From IMG/VR virus record IMGVR_UViG_3300043410_000643, positions 1 through 33,285 of that record: a stretch of 33,285 nucleotides of DNA. The stretch is one strand, 5' to 3'. The notes below the pieces were generated by a model. The model was not told where the DNA came from. It did no database searches and saw only the letters and a list, made by a program, of their open reading frames with translations. Each line of letters begins with the position of its first letter. Within the stretch, counting starts at the first letter, position 1. Origin of the DNA: a virus. Shown piece by piece: positions 19,771 to 32,508 of the stretch. Position numbers and translations under genes: made by a program.

Positions 19771-21114
19771 TTAGACCAATACTTGATATGCACTTGCAAC
19801 AATGTTTTGCATAGTAATGCTGTTTGTTGTCACAGTATTACCTGAAGCATCAAGAGAAGCTGTTTGAGCAGAATTGCTTGCAACAACAGAATAAGTACCT
19901 GCTGCAAGATTTAAAACTTGATTGTAGGCATTGCTTTGTGCGGCAATCTTTGCTCCACCACTTGGAACAGGAAGTATTGTTGAAGAAGCAAATCCGACTG
20001 AAGCATTTGAGCTAACTACAGTTCCAGAACTATTTTCAACCCTGATGCCAACGCTGCAAATACATGCAACAGATGAGGTAGATGCCGACAATGTCATCAA
20101 CGTATTTAAGTTGACCATGACAATGCCAGCTTCTGCCAAAGTAAACGTAAATAAAGTTACTTTTGTTCCACTCAAAGGCACAAGAACACTAGCTGCATAT
20201 CCAGTTAATGCACTTAAAAATCCATTTAAATTTACGTTTGTTCCATCAAAGACAATATTACCGGCTGCATTTCCAAGAGCAAATCTGCCATCATCATAAA
20301 AATGAGCGCCAGCACCTGTCATCGTAGTGCCACTAATTACAGGAGTACCCGCCGCTCCAGAGATGATCAACTCACCAGCAGTGACAGTACCAAGATTAGC
20401 ACTAATGGCAGACAAAGCACCAACTTTAAGGTTTGACAGATATGGAGCATTCCATGTTGTCAGGTCTGTCATTGGGTTGTAAATGCCATCAGATTGAAAC
20501 AAAGCCTCGTTTACAGCCAATGTAGGAGGTGTGGCTTGCCAAGTTTCAGATCCTCCCCAAGTATTTGTAGGTGGGAAGCTACTAGCGCCAGATGTTTGAT
20601 ATGTAGATGGAGTGCTTGACAGCGATGTGCTTGTGCTTTTTGCATAGCAAATACGCGATGAAGCACCATCAGAGCCAGAGATCACATCTAAATCAATAGC
20701 TGAACCATTGTCTGCTTGATACAAAGGAGATGGAGCCGCCAAAGCAACAATTAAATCAATACGTCTGCCACCGGTGACAGAATAAAAAATTTGCTTAGTC
20801 GTACTAAACCCACCAGTAACCTTGTACCAAACGTAATCCGCTGGATTAGTTGATTCAGTTGATGAATCAGAGTTCCTGATGCCGTAATACAACCGGCTAG
20901 TAGGAGTATTGCTGAAATTTAAAGTTCCATCAAAACTATCTGCATATTTGATCTGAATATATTTGTACAGATAACTAACCACATTACCAACAGCGTCAGT
21001 GATTTGCCCATTACCAATATTGGTGGATGTGCTTAATTGGCTATTCCCAAGCAAATAGTTAATTGCTTCTGAAATCTCAGAAGGTGTTGGATTTCCATCA
21101 ACAAAAAATGGCAT
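19771..21114 (-). CDS. Tail tip or fibre protein with gpJ-tail-like motif
   Basis: 447 residues, Ser/Thr/Ala/Gly-rich and beta-sheet-like. The N-terminal 45 residues (MPFFVDGNPTPSEISEAIN) look like a virion-attachment helix. At about residues 228-250 KVGALSAISANLGTVTAGEL resembles the C-terminal hub motif of gpJ-type tail proteins. Then comes a domain with GAHFYDDGRFALGN and a C-terminal jelly-roll-like part (GTYSVVASNSAQ). It is probably host-facing. The ATG overlaps the stop of the upstream gene by one base. Confidence 0.65.
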   Translation of the reverse strand: MPFFVDGNPTPSEISEAINYLLGNSQLSTSTNIGNGQITDAVGNVVSYLYKYIQIKYADSFDGTLNFSNTPTSRLYYGIRNSDSSTESTNPADYVWYKVTGGFSTTKQIFYSVTGGRRIDLIVALAAPSPLYQADNGSAIDLDVISGSDGASSRICYAKSTSTSLSSTPSTYQTSGASSFPPTNTWGGSETWQATPPTLAVNEALFQSDGIYNPMTDLTTWNAPYLSNLKVGALSAISANLGTVTAGELIISGAAGTPVISGTTMTGAGAHFYDDGRFALGNAAGNIVFDGTNVNLNGFLSALTGYAASVLVPLSGTKVTLFTFTLAEAGIVMVNLNTLMTLSASTSSVACICSVGIRVENSSGTVVSSNASVGFASSTILPVPSGGAKIAAQSNAYNQVLNLAAGTYSVVASNSAQTASLDASGNTVTTNSITMQNIVASAYQVLV

Positions 21115-22721
21115 TAGAACGCATCCTCAGTTACGGTGGCTTGCCAGTTCAGTGCTGTCAAATTCCACGCATCTGTTGCATCGTTTGATTCAACCTTAAC
21201 AGCAACAGTCCTAAAAGTGTTCTGCTGAGTTGTCACCCAAGGCGTGTTTGTATCAATATCAGTTACTGCTGCGTCACCATATTGTGCCGTTTGAGCTGTG
21301 GAATTAGCGCCACCAACAGTAATATTGATTGTTCCAGTTCCAGAAATCTCAGGCAATACACGGTGGACATAAACCTTAGATGAATACGGGACAGGACCTT
21401 CAGCAGTTTGTAAAGCAATGTTTGTACGTTCAAACAAAGTAGGAATCGGCTGGGAATTGATGAAAGAATTGCCCCTGCCTGTTTGTACTATCTTTTGAGA
21501 TGAAACTCCCCCACGGGCATATGAAACAGTCCTAGAGGCATATTTAAATGCACCACCTATGTAGACAGGAGCTTCAGTTCCCATACACGCATTCTCAACA
21601 TCTTTTGGAGCATTCCAAATCTTCAAGTCATAACGGTACGACAACATCTTGTTGCACCAACCAGTAGAGGTCAGATCAGGATAGTAAATCTCGATCTGGT
21701 TCTTCTGAGTGTTGTTGACCATAAAAATACGGTCAGAGTATGTTGTACTCAGGTTACGGAAGAAATAATCACGTACTCGTTGGTTACCCAATGGAGCAAA
21801 GTCAGAACCGTTAAACACCCAGATGTCTCGGCTGTCAACGCCATAAACTTCAGAATCGGTGTTTGACCAGCAGTTGTTGTTGATCAATCCACGGCCTTGG
21901 TTAAACAAGCGAACACCAAATACAGGTGCTGTGCTGTTTTGATAGGCAATGGGACTCATCACAACCGTGTCCCAGTAAGAACAAATATAGAAGTTCGCGC
22001 CAAGGAAGAAGCCATCAACAATCGGTCCACGAACAGGAATCTCTTGCTCGTTGGCTACGTTATTGAGAGTAGGCATCCATGTGGCAGGAACACCTGTATT
22101 TGCAAATGCTTGTGACCAACGGATTGTCGTTGGGTAGTTTGTAGTGATGCCACCAGCAACTTTAGTTAAGTTACCTGCAATCAGAATGTTGCCTACGTTT
22201 GGAGAGCAAAAGTTACGCACAAATCCTGCAGTTGTTGACGTTACGCCAACGTCATAGTTCCACACGTAGTAATCAGGAGCTGAGTCGTAGATATAGATTT
22301 CCGTGGCAGTTGCCAAGAAATACATTGGAGGACGCAAACCATCATTGATGAAAAACACATTACCAACCCACGAAGTAGTAATGTTTGTGTCGTCAGAATA
22401 ACCAGACAAAGCTACGTTTGGATTGGCTCCAACACCCGGTGTGATGTTGGCAATACCGCCAGCAGTAATCTTGTACCATTTACCTTCTCTGGTGGCAGTA
22501 ATATACGTCCACTCAGTCCCACGGAAGCCACCTTCCCAAAAAATAGGATTACCGGGAATGGCATACAAGATCTCTTCTTCACCTGAGATCTTTTTGATAC
22601 CGCGCACATCGGCCTCAACATTTCGTCCAGAGTTGTACTCGTTCGGACCAAGCGCATTGCTAGGCACATCCGGAGTGAAGGACATGTTTAGAAATGGGGT
22701 GCGAAGTGGTGTATAGCTCAT
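21114..22721 (-). CDS. Tail hub/nozzle-type beta-propeller protein
   Basis: 535 residues. The head MSYTPLRTPFLNMSFTPDVPSN leads to strands with repeating aromatic/Gly pairs (GGFRGTEWTYITATREGKWY; TTSWVGNVFFINDGLRP; VYGVDSRDIWVFNGSDF). Such repeated blades fit a beta-propeller of the kind in podoviral nozzle or DNA-stabilisation proteins. Position after the fibre genes and before Ala-rich proteins also fits a tail nozzle. The family name is inferred. Confidence 0.65.
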   Translation of the reverse strand: MSYTPLRTPFLNMSFTPDVPSNALGPNEYNSGRNVEADVRGIKKISGEEEILYAIPGNPIFWEGGFRGTEWTYITATREGKWYKITAGGIANITPGVGANPNVALSGYSDDTNITTSWVGNVFFINDGLRPPMYFLATATEIYIYDSAPDYYVWNYDVGVTSTTAGFVRNFCSPNVGNILIAGNLTKVAGGITTNYPTTIRWSQAFANTGVPATWMPTLNNVANEQEIPVRGPIVDGFFLGANFYICSYWDTVVMSPIAYQNSTAPVFGVRLFNQGRGLINNNCWSNTDSEVYGVDSRDIWVFNGSDFAPLGNQRVRDYFFRNLSTTYSDRIFMVNNTQKNQIEIYYPDLTSTGWCNKMLSYRYDLKIWNAPKDVENACMGTEAPVYIGGAFKYASRTVSYARGGVSSQKIVQTGRGNSFINSQPIPTLFERTNIALQTAEGPVPYSSKVYVHRVLPEISGTGTINITVGGANSTAQTAQYGDAAVTDIDTNTPWVTTQQNTFRTVAVKVESNDATDAWNLTALNWQATVTEDAF

Positions 22722-22761: not shown

Positions 22762-23193
22762 TTATGGCAAAGCTTGAAATACCTGCTCTGCGGTAAAAAA
22801 CCTGTTTGCATCAAACTCATAGGCTTCCCACCAAAGAAACTGGTTTGAAGCCAAATACGACCTGTCTTTCAATAAGTTAATGTTCTCTGGGTGACCAAAG
22901 ATCAAAGGGTCAGAAATAGACCAAATGACAGTTCCCGGCTTGCCTTCTGACCATGCCAAGTGCTGGAAGAAGCTGTCGCAGCTAATCCATGTTCGACACT
23001 CTTTAAGCAGTTTTTTTAGGTCGTCTAATGGCAGGTTTTGACGAAAATCCGTGCAAAGTTGCGTTTCACCGGCAATTCCGACCTGAACAACAGGCTCGTC
23101 AATCATGGCAATAAGCTCTTTCCAATACGGAAAGTTCTTTGGGTTTTCCTTTCCGTTGGTCAATTTTTTAGCAAATGGAGAGATGATGATCAT
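22762..23193 (-). CDS. GT9-like glycosyltransferase, C-terminal half
   Basis: 143 residues: MIIISPFAKKLTNGKENPKNFPYW, then VVQVGIAGETQL, DLKKLLKECRTWISCDSFFQHLAW and GKPGTVIWSISDPLIFGHPENIN. This matches the second (nucleotide-sugar) domain of heptosyltransferase-like GT9 enzymes: the beta-alpha repeats, the D/S-x-F-x-Q-H-L-A segment and the GxxGTVIW...DPxxFGHPEN motif. The matching first domain is not in this gene but at the end of the gene before it, from which it is joined by an ATGA overlap. Together they would form one GT-B active site from two chains. Confidence 0.75.
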   Translation of the reverse strand: MIIISPFAKKLTNGKENPKNFPYWKELIAMIDEPVVQVGIAGETQLCTDFRQNLPLDDLKKLLKECRTWISCDSFFQHLAWSEGKPGTVIWSISDPLIFGHPENINLLKDRSYLASNQFLWWEAYEFDANRFFTAEQVFQALP

Positions 23194-24155
23194 AGGTACA
23201 TCTTTTCATATGCAGACTCAAGACTGCCTTGCCACTTCCATTGGTCCATTTTTTTGTAGATGTTCCATTGATCAAGATTGCCAAACTTGTACTCAGCTTC
23301 AGCGATTGACAAGCCTTCAACAACCTCTGGATAGCAGGTAAACACAATCGGGTTCCTAATCTTTGGCAGTACCTTGCTAAACACAATGTGATCGCCCAAG
23401 CCACCATTTAGAACCACAATGGTATGGTTTTTCAACTCCATGAAATTCTCAAAGATACGCTCATCACGTTCATACAAAGCTTGGTTGGTTTCGCTTCGAA
23501 TGCCGCCTTTTGGATTCTTTAGATGCCAAGTAATGGCGTTAGGTGCAACAACTATCCCATATCCTTTTTGGTATAGACCATAGGTGAACAAGGTTTCTTC
23601 TCGATGAGCGACACGAGATAAACCAAGGTTGTAGTCATGAACGCCAGCTCGGTACAAGAACGTGCAATGCAGGTGCTGAACAAATGTAGGTTTGTCAATC
23701 ATTCCCCATTGGATGTTTGGTTCGTCGTTGATTAGCTCAATAAAGCCTGTTGCTCCATTGGCTTTGATGGCAGGAGGAGTCAACACAGATCCTCCAACAG
23801 CACCAATTTTAGAACCTGTGTGCATCATCAACGTCTGAAGCACATTGGGTTCAGGGATAGCGTCATCGTCCACACGCCACACCCATTCATAGCCCATCAA
23901 GTTAGCTGTCTGGTGGCTGTAATGCTGGCCTTTCTTGGCAGCAAATACCCATTCCCAAGCCACGCCTTTGATGTCCAACATCTGGAAAAAATAGCCGTAG
24001 ACAAGCTCATTTCGCATATCCTGCGGCTCATCATTGTCGTCAAAGATTACCAGTTTGTCTGGCAATCTAGTCTGGTTAATGATGGCGTTTAGCGTGAGCG
24101 GTAGAGTAGTAAAGTATCTGCCTCTAGTAGCGATAGAGCAAAGGACCTTACTCAT
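23190..24155 (-). CDS. GT2-type glycosyltransferase fused to GT9 N-terminal half
   Basis: 321 residues. Residues 1-235 are a GT-A fold of family 2: LCSIATRGRYFTTLPLTLNAI, LVIFDDNDEPQ, then WVWRVDDDAIPEP (DDD at 96-98 for metal and sugar-nucleotide binding), HCTFLYRAG and HREETLF (184-190). Residues 243-321 switch to a second fold: HTIVVLNGGLGDHIVFSKVLP and IVFTCYPEVVEGLS, which look like the N-terminal domain of GT9 enzymes. The C-terminal half of that enzyme is the next gene. The protein probably transfers sugars to a phage or host glycan. Confidence 0.8.
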   Translation of the reverse strand: MSKVLCSIATRGRYFTTLPLTLNAIINQTRLPDKLVIFDDNDEPQDMRNELVYGYFFQMLDIKGVAWEWVFAAKKGQHYSHQTANLMGYEWVWRVDDDAIPEPNVLQTLMMHTGSKIGAVGGSVLTPPAIKANGATGFIELINDEPNIQWGMIDKPTFVQHLHCTFLYRAGVHDYNLGLSRVAHREETLFTYGLYQKGYGIVVAPNAITWHLKNPKGGIRSETNQALYERDERIFENFMELKNHTIVVLNGGLGDHIVFSKVLPKIRNPIVFTCYPEVVEGLSIAEAEYKFGNLDQWNIYKKMDQWKWQGSLESAYEKMYL

Positions 24156-24816
24156 TGTCCCACCTGCACAGCATTAGATTGAACTTATTGCGCTCACTGA
24201 GTGCTTGAGGGTAATCAGTAATAAAGCCATGTTCATTCACATAGCTGTATTTAAAGCCTAAAAAGTCAAGCTCTGTAAGGTTGTGAAGCTTGTGATGTTC
24301 GCCCCAAAATCCTTCTGGTTCTTGCAATGGGACTGAGATCAACAATCGTTTGCAGTTCTTTTTGAGTTTTTCGACGATCTCAAGTCCATTGCTCAAATGC
24401 TCAATAACTTCAAAAGCAATGATGGTGTCTTGGTTGCTTATGTTGGCTTGATTGATGTCACAGGTTTTGAATAACCTATTTGCGCCCCAGTTTTGCTTGT
24501 GAGCAACATCAATGATGATTGGGTCGTAATCAAGCCCAAAATATTCCACAGAGTTGGGAAGAAATTGACTTCCATAACCTGTCGAGCATCCAACCTCTAG
24601 AACTTTGTTGCCCAATAGGTTTTGATTGGCCCACAGATAACGAGCTGCTTCTCTTGGCAATACAGGATCACCTTTGAGGAATACAGCCCGTTCATAGTTA
24701 TTGGTCAATCGCCAACGATACCAATCTGGGTTGTATTCTTCTGCTAGGTTGAGAACGTGAATCTCTAAGATCTTTTCCCATTGAGTGGAAATGTCAAGCC
24801 CATACAGTGTGTTCAT
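24148..24816 (-). CDS. Class I SAM-dependent methyltransferase
   Basis: 222 residues from MNTLYGLDISTQW; GGAAAAGT stands upstream. KVLEVGCSTGYGSQFLP is motif I (GxGxG-like SAM-binding loop), YFGLDYDPIII supplies the acidic residue of motif II, and DTIIAFEVIEHLSNG is motif IV/post I of the UbiE/Methyltransf_11 type. An N-terminal extension of about 70 residues may read the substrate. The gene overlaps the GT2-GT9N gene by eight bases, so it likely methylates a sugar or the glycan acceptor. Confidence 0.85.
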   Translation of the reverse strand: MNTLYGLDISTQWEKILEIHVLNLAEEYNPDWYRWRLTNNYERAVFLKGDPVLPREAARYLWANQNLLGNKVLEVGCSTGYGSQFLPNSVEYFGLDYDPIIIDVAHKQNWGANRLFKTCDINQANISNQDTIIAFEVIEHLSNGLEIVEKLKKNCKRLLISVPLQEPEGFWGEHHKLHNLTELDFLGFKYSYVNEHGFITDYPQALSERNKFNLMLCRWDNE

Positions 24817-24840
24817 ACTTTTCCATGTCAATGCAATACT

Positions 24841-25417: not shown

Positions 25418-27754
25418 TCAGCGGGCCAAAGCGTATTTCGTTGGATTTTCAGCGAAGGCTGCGTAGATGTACGTCACGCCTGAACTGTTGGGGTCGCTAG
25501 ACACTCTCAGCTTAAAGCCGTTGGAGAGCGCATCAAAGCGAACTGTGCCAGACGATTCAGCGTTTGAAAGGTTGGGGAATAATTGTTTCTGCATACCGTT
25601 GTAGTCGTCACGAGCCGTGTCCAAAATCACCCAGTCAGCAACGCCAGACGATGCTTTGGCTAGGATGAAACGGGGTCTAAATCCTAGGTACACAAATACA
25701 CCATCAGTAGACCCGTTGCCAACGTAGCTCCCGAACTTGGAGAAGCCAGCGACTTCTGCGAATAGGTAGGCGACATAGTTTTGCGCCAAGTTCTGACTTC
25801 CAGACAACACGATGTTGCTTGACGACTGGCTAACAAACGGTGTACTTGCATTGCTTGCTGCGCTTGTATTAAAAAGCAAATAATAGTTCGCAGATAAGCT
25901 CTTGTGACCAATCAACCAGTCTGTTGATGTCAAAGTTCTGTCTTTGATAATCCACATAGCTGGTGTAACGCCAAGATTGTGATTAACAGTGATGCTACCG
26001 CTGCCAGTACCCGTATAGGTCACAATGTCAAAGCCAGCGGTGACGGATTCTTTCCAACCCCATGCTGCGTATGTTGCCGAGGCATCAAGACTTCCATCAA
26101 AGCCATCAGCAGTGAACCCATACAAGTCGTTGTCTGTCGTTTCTGCGCCAGTTGTGTTGGATGACAAACGGTTGATTGCGCCACGGACAGTATCAAATAG
26201 CTTGTGGTCTTCGATTGCCGAACGTTTTTTAATCCACACCAAATCTGGCGCGAAGCCGTAACCTGTGATGGATTGGTTAGAACCTGTGCCTGTAACCAAC
26301 ACAGTGTTCATTGCAGAGCCACCCTTCTTGATCGTGCTGTCTGGCAAGTTCTGCGTGTTCAGCGCCTTGAAGCCTGTGGGTGGGGTATAGGTGAAGGGGC
26401 GTTGACCGAAGTTCAACACAGTCGTGCTGGATGAAAAGTTATTCAGCCATACGAATTGCTGGTTTGTGTACGAGTAGGTGAATGTCTGGTTTGTACCAGA
26501 TGAAGGGTCGCCGGTTGTGCCGCTTCCGGAGTCAAACCAAAGACCATTCTTTCCAAACCACACTTTGCCAGTGTCGGCATCGTAGGCCATCATCAGAATG
26601 TCATTGGCTGCAAACGCAATGTTAGAACCATTACGAACAGTTGTCGCACCATTGAGAATGGTCTGTGACACACCATTACGAGTCCCATAGTAGCAGGTGT
26701 CGGCCTGACCGAAAGCATTTGCACTGTTGTTTATCGTGCCATATTTGCTGAAACCAATACCAACCCACGAGCTTGCAGGGAACGATGTTGCTACCGCTTC
26801 AAAATACCACTTGCCCGTAGTAGGAACTGCGAACGTGCTGTAAACACCGCCATACACGCTTCCAGAGTTTGCCCACGTCAAGTTGCCATCAGACAATGTG
26901 CCTGACACGACAGGACCAATAGGGTTCATCACAGCATAGTTGCCGCGCCCATTCCCGCCATCAGCGTAAGGCGTTGGCACATCAATCATGCTGTCGTAGG
27001 TCGTACCAGCAGTCACCGAGATGTTGTTCGGTGTCCAGTTGTTGCCGTTGCCAGAACTGTCCTTGCCAATGGTTGTAGATGTGTTATTGCTGTTGTCTGA
27101 GAAGTTCAGATAAAAGCCGTTAGTGCCGTATGTGCCAGCGTACTTCTTGGGCTTCCACACGCCAGTGATGCTGTCTGTTTCACCAAAGCTGGATGGCGTC
27201 AGAGCTTGACCATCAATAAAGTTGATTTCGGTAACGTAACCATCTAGATAAACTGTCGAATTACTCCGTGAGCTAATCCTGTGAGAAATAGCAGAATTTA
27301 TGTAAGGTGAGTAATTTTGTGTTGGATAGGCTGCAATTGCAAACGAAGTGATTTGCACACCGTTTACATATAAAAGCAATCTATTTGATGCTGTTGCATT
27401 TGCTGAGTCAAAGACCGCAACAATGTGATACCAGCCACTTGGATCTCTATAAACAGCATTTGATCTTATGGCGTAAGAAGCTCCATTGTTTAATAGAAAC
27501 CATAATGTGTCATCAGATCTAAATCCAATCTGATCGTCATTAGGAGCTGTTCCCGCGCCAAATATCAGTTGTTCAGTAGATAAAGCTCCACGTTTAACCC
27601 AACCACTCCAAGTCCATTTCAGGTTGTTGGTTGGTGTTGTAAGTGTCCGATTGAAATAAGCACTCGCACTTGAGCGCAGACGCACAGAGCGGCTGATTCG
27701 ATAACCCTGTTGCCCAGAAGCTCCAGCAAGAATAATGTCGTGAAATGCGCTCAT
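25418..27754 (-). CDS. Large tail fibre: LamG, SPRY-like and repeat domains
   Basis: 778 residues. Residues 45-185 form a LamG/concanavalin-like lectin fold (WTWSGWVKRG, SGWYHIVAVFDS, NRLLLYVNGVQI, YLDGYVTEINFIDG). Residues 310-460 are a SPRY-like domain (GKWYFEAVAT, SWVGIGFSKYG, YDADTGKVWFGKNGLW, FGQRPFTYTPPTGFKAL). The C-terminal 290 residues hold two related modules with FAPDLVWIKKR and VTPAMWIIKDR strands, like DUF7483-type fibres. These would bind host surface glycans or proteins. ATGA-coupled to the gene before it. Confidence 0.85.
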   Translation of the reverse strand: MSAFHDIILAGASGQQGYRISRSVRLRSSASAYFNRTLTTPTNNLKWTWSGWVKRGALSTEQLIFGAGTAPNDDQIGFRSDDTLWFLLNNGASYAIRSNAVYRDPSGWYHIVAVFDSANATASNRLLLYVNGVQITSFAIAAYPTQNYSPYINSAISHRISSRSNSTVYLDGYVTEINFIDGQALTPSSFGETDSITGVWKPKKYAGTYGTNGFYLNFSDNSNNTSTTIGKDSSGNGNNWTPNNISVTAGTTYDSMIDVPTPYADGGNGRGNYAVMNPIGPVVSGTLSDGNLTWANSGSVYGGVYSTFAVPTTGKWYFEAVATSFPASSWVGIGFSKYGTINNSANAFGQADTCYYGTRNGVSQTILNGATTVRNGSNIAFAANDILMMAYDADTGKVWFGKNGLWFDSGSGTTGDPSSGTNQTFTYSYTNQQFVWLNNFSSSTTVLNFGQRPFTYTPPTGFKALNTQNLPDSTIKKGGSAMNTVLVTGTGSNQSITGYGFAPDLVWIKKRSAIEDHKLFDTVRGAINRLSSNTTGAETTDNDLYGFTADGFDGSLDASATYAAWGWKESVTAGFDIVTYTGTGSGSITVNHNLGVTPAMWIIKDRTLTSTDWLIGHKSLSANYYLLFNTSAASNASTPFVSQSSSNIVLSGSQNLAQNYVAYLFAEVAGFSKFGSYVGNGSTDGVFVYLGFRPRFILAKASSGVADWVILDTARDDYNGMQKQLFPNLSNAESSGTVRFDALSNGFKLRVSSDPNSSGVTYIYAAFAENPTKYALAR

Positions 27755-28165: not shown

Positions 28166-30415
28166 TTAGCTTACGAGAGCGATGTTTTTAGCTGTGCCAG
28201 CATAGTTTGTGAATGGCAGGTATGTACTGGAAACCAAACTAATTCTGTCATAGACGTTGGCATATGTATAAAACGGAAAATATGCTGCAGCACTTGTTCC
28301 GCTTGTTCCAGAATATCCGCTGTAACCGCTGTATCCAGACGTTCCAGCAGGTCCTGTAGCGCCTGAATAGCCAGAGATGCCAGATGCTCCATTAGCCCCC
28401 GAGTAACCGCTATAGCCAGATTGACCATAAGCAATCAGGTTGGCAGAGAAGTATGTACCGCTACTGTCGCTACTGCCTTTTTGCAAGACTTGGCTAGTGG
28501 TGTTGGATGTGTAAGCAGTGAAGTCAACATAGTCTGTTGAGCCATTCAAATACACAATTCGTGTACCACCCTGAGACAAGCCATTGGCAGTCATCACTGA
28601 GTCTTGATAAATACCAAAAGTGTTGCCGTTTTTACGAGCTTGAATGTTTGTCTGACCAGTGGATAAAACACCAGTTGCCCACCAACCTTGCAATGTGATG
28701 CTGTAGTAACCAGCTACGTTTGGCGTAAAGCGTTTTGTTGATGGATCCCACCAGTTCTTTGGATCAAATGTGTCAACAAAAGAAATTAACGTATCTGAAC
28801 CAGATGTGATTGTTTGATCAGTGCTTAAAGAACCACCAGCCAAATATGTACTGGCAGTCAGTTGACCACCATCTTGACCGCTATAACCAGAGTATCCTGA
28901 ATATCCAGATGCACCTGTAGCACCTGTCGCTCCAGTGGCTCCGGAATAGCCAGAGATACCGCTTGCTCCGTTGATACCTGAATAACCGCTATAGCCAGAA
29001 GCGCCAGTAGCACCACTGTATCCCGAATAACCAGAAGCTCCAGTAGCGCCATTGATACCAGAATAGCCGCTATAACCGCTTATTCCTGACCCGCTATACC
29101 CAGAGTAGCCAGAAGCGCCAGAAGCGCCAGAAGCGCCTACAGCCCCGCTATAGCCAGAATAGCCACTAATGCCGCTATACCCAGATTGGGTGTACATGAC
29201 TTGAGACAAGTTAACAATGACACCGGGGGTTTCTGGAACGCCATCGTAGGCCGCAATGGTTTCAATAGAAACCTGTGTGCTATCAGTTTTCCACCACAAC
29301 TCGACGTAGTCATTTACACCAGTTGAAGTGCCGATAAAGTCAACAGTAGCTACTGAATAACCATAATCACTTGCGTCTTTACGAGCAGGGACAAAGAAAC
29401 GTGTATTGCTATCAGGGTAGTTTGAGCCGTTGTATTTCAGCCAAATATCAGCGTAATGAATGGCATTATCAGTGTTCACCAACTGAATGGAGAACGTCAT
29501 CTTGTAAGTGCCGGGATTATGAATTACAAGTTGACCAGTTCCAGAAAGCGCAATACCCACAGCAGATGTTGTGCTGCCAATTGCAATTACTTGATTGGTT
29601 GCAGAACCAGTTTGATCTGTCGTATCAAAGAAAGCGCCATAGTTACCAATTGCACCGCCAACACCGGGTGCGCCAGAATAACCAGAGTAACCGCTAATAC
29701 CTGAATAGCCAGAGATACCGCTGTATCCGCTATAACCAGACACACCAATGCCAGAGTAACCAGAATAACCAGACATACCAGAGCCTGAATAACCAGAAAT
29801 GCCTGAGTACCCAGAGAATCCTGAATATCCACTTACGCCAGAACCGCTGTAACCAGAAATGCCAGAAACACCACTAGCACCAGAAAATCCAGAAATTCCA
29901 CTAGCTCCAGAAAATCCAGAAATACCACTGTAGCCAGAAATGCCAGAATAACCAGATAATCCTGAACCAGAATAACCACTAATGCCGGAATAGCCTGAGA
30001 AACCAGAATAGCCGGATTGATTCACTTGACCAAATAAACCGGGCTCTGTCCAAGCCAAAGCAGCATCACTCTTGGAGTTAACCAAGGCAATAGACACCCA
30101 AATTTGATCAGGATAAGTTACAGACGTTGGAGGTTGAGAAGTCCAGCCAGATGGTGCTGTACCGCTGTTTGTTGTAAAGCTCCAAGAACCACCAGTTGGT
30201 GTTGCAGGTTGCGTTGGCGAAACCTGAAAGATGAACCATTCAAAATAAGATCCACCAAAGATAGTTCCATTCCCATACAACCCAGAAGTCTCACCTCCGG
30301 GCTGTGCAATTACAGAACCATTAGGACTCTTGCCATATAAACCGGTAGTTTCTGTACCGGGTTGAGCAATAAGAGCGCCTGTTGGACTTTGTCCATAAAG
30401 ACCGCCTGTAGCCAT
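28166..30415 (-). CDS. Collagen-like tail fibre with C1q-like heads
   Basis: 749 residues. The first 48 contain two 20-residue repeats (GLYGxSPxG...IAQPGxETxx) plus part of a third. After a polar region come Gly-X-Ser triplets at residues 134-253, 411-515 and 665-708 (GYS, GIS, GFS, GAS; almost no proline). Between them lie two similar beta-rich heads at 258-409 (NYGAFFDTTDQTGSATNQV; GTYKMTFSIQLV) and 519-664 (GYYSITLQGWW; YVDFTAYTSNTT), like C1q/TNF jelly rolls. The C-terminal 40 residues end in a short polar tip. A trimeric rod-and-head host-binding fibre is the natural reading. Confidence 0.82.
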   Translation of the reverse strand: MATGGLYGQSPTGALIAQPGTETTGLYGKSPNGSVIAQPGGETSGLYGNGTIFGGSYFEWFIFQVSPTQPATPTGGSWSFTTNSGTAPSGWTSQPPTSVTYPDQIWVSIALVNSKSDAALAWTEPGLFGQVNQSGYSGFSGYSGISGYSGSGLSGYSGISGYSGISGFSGASGISGFSGASGVSGISGYSGSGVSGYSGFSGYSGISGYSGSGMSGYSGYSGIGVSGYSGYSGISGYSGISGYSGYSGAPGVGGAIGNYGAFFDTTDQTGSATNQVIAIGSTTSAVGIALSGTGQLVIHNPGTYKMTFSIQLVNTDNAIHYADIWLKYNGSNYPDSNTRFFVPARKDASDYGYSVATVDFIGTSTGVNDYVELWWKTDSTQVSIETIAAYDGVPETPGVIVNLSQVMYTQSGYSGISGYSGYSGAVGASGASGASGYSGYSGSGISGYSGYSGINGATGASGYSGYSGATGASGYSGYSGINGASGISGYSGATGATGATGASGYSGYSGYSGQDGGQLTASTYLAGGSLSTDQTITSGSDTLISFVDTFDPKNWWDPSTKRFTPNVAGYYSITLQGWWATGVLSTGQTNIQARKNGNTFGIYQDSVMTANGLSQGGTRIVYLNGSTDYVDFTAYTSNTTSQVLQKGSSDSSGTYFSANLIAYGQSGYSGYSGANGASGISGYSGATGPAGTSGYSGYSGYSGTSGTSAAAYFPFYTYANVYDRISLVSSTYLPFTNYAGTAKNIALVS
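28292..28423 (-). repeat. Gly-X-Ser triplet block 3
   Basis: A shorter block of about 15 triplets after the second head, including GPA (the rare proline) and ending GTSGTS before the C-terminal tip. Confidence 0.8.
28871..29185 (-). repeat. Gly-X-Ser and Gly-Ala-Thr triplet block 2
   Basis: About 35 triplets with more GAT, GAS and GIN members than block 1, placed between the two C1q-like heads. Codons are again nearly repetitive, so expansion or loss by slippage or recombination is likely. Confidence 0.85.
29657..30016 (-). repeat. Gly-X-Ser triplet block 1
   Basis: About 40 triplets coded by near-identical nonamers such as CCAGAATAA/CCAGAGATA on the plus strand. X is mostly Tyr, Ile or Phe. 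The run is broken at a few SG-SGxSG offsets that shift the triplet phase. Confidence 0.85.
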
Positions 30416-31929: not shown

Positions 31930-32508
31930 TTATACCTTACAGTTGTCAAAATGCCAGCGGTACATGTTAGGTCCACGACCTTCATGCCCACAATTTGGGC
32001 AAGTCAAAACTTTCTGAGCTTGCTGTTTAGCATTTTCGGTCATTTTTGCGACATGCTCTTCACTCTTTGTTTTTCCTTTGTTAGCCAAAGCAATCTTTTC
32101 AGAGTGTTCTTTTGCATGAGGCCCACGAAGTTTGCCTAGCTGAGAAAGTCGAATTTGTTTACGAGTTTGCTCAGAAAGAATTGCACCCAAACGTGGGGGC
32201 GTTCTAAGTTTTAGTTTAGCTTTTTGTTTGTCAGTCCAAACATACCCAGAGCAACCTTCACCACCATCAGTTAGATTGCAAAGAGTAGTCAAATCACGAA
32301 AACACTCAATCAAAAATTTCTCATGAATAAAAGCATCTTTTTCAGATTCCCATTCAGCAAAAATCTCTACCGTGTAACCATGTTTGTTAACAATGTTGCG
32401 CCAATAGTCTGAACGACTATCTTTTTCATGAGCGCGACGACCATTCCCTTTTCCAATATAGAAAAGTTGTTTTGAATCAGCTTTGTAATGACCGTATGTG
32501 TAGTACAT
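31930..32508 (-). CDS. GIY-YIG homing endonuclease with zinc tail
   Basis: 192 residues. The GIY-YIG nuclease is read from YTYGHYKADSKQLFYIGKG (1-21), with R24/R25, E63 and CNLTDGGEG (77-85). A run of basic NUMOD-like segments follows (LSEQTRKQIRLSQLG; AKEHSEKIALANKG). The C-terminus has TCPNCGHEGRGPNMYRWHFDNC, a C2HC zinc finger (C170, C173, H186, C190). This is the usual free-standing phage homing nuclease. It sits directly after the capsid gene and its terminator, splitting an otherwise continuous structural operon. Confidence 0.9.
   Translation of the reverse strand: MYYTYGHYKADSKQLFYIGKGNGRRAHEKDSRSDYWRNIVNKHGYTVEIFAEWESEKDAFIHEKFLIECFRDLTTLCNLTDGGEGCSGYVWTDKQKAKLKLRTPPRLGAILSEQTRKQIRLSQLGKLRGPHAKEHSEKIALANKGKTKSEEHVAKMTENAKQQAQKVLTCPNCGHEGRGPNMYRWHFDNCKV

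Follow-up and report, generated by a model that had tools for sequence, protein, structure and literature searches.

Glycosyltransferases of the GT-B fold with their two halves on separate chains are already established for the MurG-related Alg13/Alg14 and bacterial EpsE/EpsF pairs, in which the C- and N-domains are naturally divided (PMC8993221). The active site of Alg13/Alg14 lies between its two chains, with the acceptor site on the N-chain and the donor site on the C-chain, and several re-fusions have been reported in the Alg13/Alg14-EpsE/EpsF family (PMC8993221). Self-assembly can also be achieved with GT-B domains that are co-expressed on separate chains (PMC10937113). The GT9 heptosyltransferases, among them E. 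coli WaaC and WaaF, TibC and 3tov, are single chains of ~320–390 aa. Activity of WaaC (HepI) dropped 4688-fold for the D13A mutant, 926-fold for K192A and 2027-fold for D261A (PMC5713226). Searches of the literature outside subscription journals turned up no description of a GT9 enzyme, or of a phage glycosyltransferase, in split form.

The window analyzed here, the whole of a 33,285-base IMG/VR phage contig, contains a minus-strand run of three overlapping genes. The first encodes a SAM-dependent methyltransferase (24148..24831; Pfam Methyltransf_12, E 1.1e-8) and overlaps the next, gene A, by 8 nt. Gene A (23190..24155, 321 aa) encodes a GT2 glycosyltransferase domain (residues 1–240, 23436..24155) followed by a GT9-N-like tail (residues 243–321, 23193..23429) in which GGLGDHIVFSKVLP is located. 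Gene B (22762..23193, 143 aa) follows through an ATGA stop-start overlap (23190..23193); its product begins MIIISPFAKKL and also contains HPENIN. A sequence-only reading of this DNA had proposed a GT9 enzyme divided between these two coupled genes, with one half fused to GT2, and the reading frames, coordinates, motifs and junction it quoted are all present in the sequence. The cassette is flanked by tail-fibre genes (25418–27754 and 28166–30415) on one side and a virion gene (21114–22721) on the other. Elsewhere in the window, a protein recognized by eye as resembling a GIY-YIG endonuclease (MYYTYGHYKADSKQLFYIGKGNGRRAHEK, 31930–32508) is inserted among structural genes.

Residues 1–240 of A are a GT-A/GT2 glycosyltransferase. 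Both the fold and a DxD-type metal site were found, with D96-D97-D98 and R185-E186-E187 invariant. Foldseek matched the domain to GT2/GT-A enzymes, including chondroitin polymerase K4CP and GalNAc-transferases, at E ~1e-8, and the match to Pfam Glycos_transf_2 (E 1e-3) fell below the cut-off. GT-A-type glycosyltransferases were also among the best BFVD matches of A, which included no recognizable GT9-fused relative.

The product of gene B is well supported as a complete GT9 C-terminal, donor-binding domain, as the sequence-only reading had suggested from its starting point at the second GT9 domain. Its AlphaFold model is confident for the domain on its own (pLDDT 96), and the top 25 PDB structures retrieved by Foldseek were all GT9 heptosyltransferases (TibC, WaaF, WaaC, 3tov), ahead of any other family (probability about 1, TM 0.56–0.67 by query length, with a modest best E of 1.5e-3). 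Against a GT9 reference profile built from 19 cellular enzymes (E. coli WaaC and WaaF among them), the B profile (1–149) aligned over the full length of B with WaaC profile positions 187–350 (hhalign probability 97.7%, P 1.4e-12), running from the start of the WaaC/WaaF C-domain to their end. The Pfam Glyco_transf_9 match (E 6.5e-4, 19.5 bits) was below the 22-bit cut-off. Neither Alg13 nor MurG appeared among the 50 structural matches of B listed, and homology to Alg13/Alg14 or MurG was not found.

The tail of A opens with a GGLGDH motif, the GxGD start also seen in GT9 heptosyltransferases, and closes with a conserved NIYKKM..W.W..SLE.AY.KMY end. It was predicted as a compact beta-alpha-beta-alpha-alpha-alpha domain (pLDDT ~92). 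Residues 5–30 of the tail slice aligned by hhalign with WaaC residues 1–27 (P 0.0018), a score reached by 1 of 1000 column shuffles. The alignment is in register at the GxGD motif, placing A-D255 on D13, and its score of 25.8 compares with 10–13 for four slices of the GT2 domain. No measurable match to the GT9 profile was seen for the remaining ~50 tail residues. The tail of A is likely, though not certain, to derive from a GT9 N-terminus. Its likeness to a GT9 N-terminal domain, as first proposed, held only for the first ~26 residues, which cover the first beta-alpha unit; in size it falls far short of the classical domain.

The catalytic Asp, Lys, Asp set of the GT9 heptosyltransferases is also found in A and B taken together. 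WaaC residues D13, K192 and D261 correspond to A-D255 (codon 23391..23393), B-K19 (23137..23139) and B-D73 (22975..22977), each invariant in 31 sequences. The set is divided between the chains, since the counterpart of the catalytic base D13 lies in A and those of K192 and D261 lie in B. The two chains would together form one GT9 active site.

Short single-chain proteins with a GT9-like fold occur in other phages. Comparison by hhalign relates the C-domains of Pelagibacter phage HTVC111P gp53 and of phrog_8954 to B (95.6% and 92.4%); unlike A and B, these proteins are single chains without GT2 and have Lys or Arg at the catalytic Asp. The N-half of gp53 is ~132 aa, and its gene adjoins a tail-fibre gene. 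Judged by eye, the gp53 N-terminus GGVGKCVAFTSLIPKLRK and a NIY segment resemble the tail of A; comparison of the tail with the gp53 profile added little (2 of 200 shuffles as good), and with the phrog_8954 profile no signal emerged (59 of 200 shuffles as good). The Asp-to-Lys/Arg change in the GxGD motif was seen in single-chain GT9-like proteins at L204:2087-2968 (gp53), L207:1877-3061 and L208:1979-2716. Although phrog_8954 is listed as of unknown function, its members match Glyco_transf_9.

In viral contigs A had 368 relatives and B at least 599; the 80 best matches to each were carried forward. Among 106 distinct loci with both genes, the genes were always in different frames and overlapped by exactly 4 nt in 105 and by 7 nt in one, which bears out the proposed coupling. 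The start codon of B was ATG in 97 loci, TTG in six and GTG in three. A pattern scan anchored on the tail W-K-W codons and the start of B, with spacing left open from 30 to 56 nt, gave at least 70 distinct junctions, a set overlapping with the 106 loci; at least 65 had the usual spacing and at least five were altered (L357, L361, L384, L386 and L111). The altered junctions all remained two reading frames, as did those of L108 and L161, and no fused A+B gene was found among the junctions listed or in the 106 loci. The junction does evolve, several lineages having rebuilt it, and two reading frames nevertheless persist, since none of the altered junctions is fused. A search for homologs joining both frames, which the sequence-only reading had proposed as a check, found no gene fused exactly like A+B, the single-chain relatives being those of the gp53 and phrog_8954 type. 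Nor did B turn up alone as an enzyme family, an outcome that would have counted against the proposal: in the best-80 viral sets A accompanied it wherever the contig was long enough, and the sole B without A is clipped by a contig end. Constraint on the protein was alike throughout, with pN/pS values of 0.24 for the GT2 part, 0.24 for the tail and 0.25 for B, at saturated synonymous sites.

The same three-gene cassette, 63–69% identical, is present in a cultured isolate, Methylophilaceae phage P19250A (genes 0024–0026, with A and B as 0025 and 0026). Its genes are annotated hypothetical and retain the 8-nt and 4-nt overlaps of the window, although beyond the cassette this siphovirus does not resemble the phage of the window. 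A tail gene precedes the cassette in both phages. P19250A gene 0023 is common to 93 of 160 loci, with the window sharing only short stretches: the window tail-fibre protein at 28166–30415 matches it at up to 77% over 35 aa. Gene 0023 is annotated as tape measure, an annotation that may be worth checking. The gene immediately before A is a relative of the methyltransferase in 88 of 97 loci, and the 8-nt overlap is retained in 72. In the other nine (L003, L004, L042, L045, L055, L097, L110, L116 and L132) it is replaced by a 214–482-aa protein starting MKYSVVIPTYNHC or similar; this is a second GT2-type glycosyltransferase, and these loci carry a cassette variant with two GT2 enzymes. Single-linkage clustering of flanks merged most loci, and the downstream surroundings of the window were common to two others.

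Outside viral contigs, relatives of B in cellular genome contigs comprised four metagenome-assembled contigs with the same split pair, which are probably phage. The pair was seen on contigs binned under the unrelated cellular labels Nitrosotalea (L161), Mucilaginibacter (L158) and Opitutae (L160); in all likelihood these are misbinned phage contigs. When ~580 genomes were searched with profiles, the relatives retrieved were all conventional one-chain GT9 enzymes that matched the C-half, and a plasmid search gave no match. A junction-spanning match in L351 proved to be a lysyl-tRNA synthetase and was rejected as chance.

The genes are adjacent and in the correct order, and an indel of one base close to the junction would make them one, as might be seen if a true GT2-GT9 gene had been broken by a sequencing or assembly frameshift. 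The probability of this is negligible. The 4-nt overlap is conserved across independent assemblies from many metagenomes, the sequenced isolate has it too, and the altered junctions L108, L111, L161, L357, L384 and L386 remain two reading frames; an assembly error was ruled out by this conservation. The split is neither chance nor a sequencing slip, because the overlap recurs in 105 of 106 loci and in cultured P19250A; kept in every relative examined, it represents a genuine and uncommon enzyme arrangement in freshwater phages. Programmed –1 ribosomal frameshifting, by which a full GT2-GT9 fusion would be made besides the short A protein, is compatible with the –1 frame of B relative to A, but we consider it very improbable. 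Within the final 16 codons of A, where wobble positions are free, there is no conserved X XXY YYZ slippery heptamer, and the frame relation is a different one in L161, L384 and L386, where a –1 slip would fail to connect A with B. The base serving as the A of the B start codon is moreover conserved in 92 of 99 sequences. Termination-reinitiation fits better than frameshifting because no slippery site is conserved.

Two further alternatives concern what the chains do. The similarity of the tail to GT9 spans only ~26 residues at a score that one shuffle in 1000 attains, as might be seen for an unrelated helical domain that begins with a chance GGLGD-like turn. This is unlikely, as the alignment starts where it should, at GT9 residue 1 with Asp on D13, and the segment immediately precedes the C-domain, in the order expected, and one-chain gp53 has a similar N-terminus and NIY segment by eye. 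The only recognizable relation of the tail is with the GT9 N-terminus; a match to an unrelated domain would have undercut the sequence-only reading. Alternatively, B may bind the donor on its own or paired with itself, and the tail may be a separate docking or regulatory module, with no GT9 catalysis across chains. The confident fold of B by itself, the very short tail and the missing catalytic Asp in the single-chain phage cousins would all suit this possibility, to which we give a small but appreciable chance; against it, B does not occur without A in the viral loci examined, apart from the one clipped by its contig end, and A-D255, B-K19 and B-D73 are invariant, as expected for one shared active site.

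We consider it probable that A and B form a bipartite GT-B glycosyltransferase of GT9 type with its acceptor half fused to GT2. As in Alg13/Alg14 and EpsE/EpsF, the N- and C-domains are on separate chains encoded by separate conserved genes. The differences are that those pairs belong to a GT1/GT28-like family rather than to GT9, that their N-chain has a membrane association helix where the N-half in A has a GT2 enzyme, and that re-fusions are reported for them, with none among the loci and junctions examined here. From the GT9 heptosyltransferases, which B resembles over the whole C-domain, the pair differs in its two chains, much shortened N-half and GT2 fusion. The A-B pair would work like Alg13/Alg14 without being a member of that family; by fold and residues it belongs with GT9, its N-half far below full size. 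Several observations weigh against a bipartite GT9 enzyme. At ~80 aa, the tail is predicted to have just two strands, and a full-size N-terminal Rossmann-like domain was not found. The A profile gave no GT9 match among PDB sequences, and the joined A+B profile placed WaaC on top only weakly (E 0.096), covering the C-half alone. Finally, the motif reads GxGK or GxGR, in place of the catalytic Asp, in the single-chain phage relatives of B, so phage GT9-like folds need not be classical enzymes.

Under the bipartite GT9 reading, the product of gene A would be a GT2 enzyme ending in a minimal GT9 N-half that bears the catalytic base D255, and the product of gene B a GT9 C-domain holding the nucleotide-sugar donor through K19 and D73. 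The ribosome would end A at TGA and restart at the overlapping ATG, making both chains in one place. B may then dock on the tail of A and complete a second active site, as in Alg13/Alg14, such that a single complex carries GT2 and GT9 transferases, presumably used one after the other. Together with the upstream methyltransferase, A and B would constitute a three-gene cassette for sugar addition and methylation adjoining tail-fibre genes. Its target is most likely a virion or tail protein or a host surface glycan, because the cassette follows a tail gene in both the window and P19250A while the rest of the genomes differ. More tentatively, the GT9 acceptor half may have shrunk to an ~80-aa stub on the GT2 enzyme, with the GT2 domain as acceptor platform; A-B might then be a disaccharide-building machine with a detachable donor-binding subunit, an idea we hold as possible but doubtful.

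If the bipartite GT9 reading is true, a split GT9 enzyme with its N-half on a second transferase would indicate that GT-B division is possible in other families too. The pair would also offer a small natural model for the mutual recognition of GT-B halves, and would explain proteins that carry a hypothetical label in freshwater phages of a widespread group.
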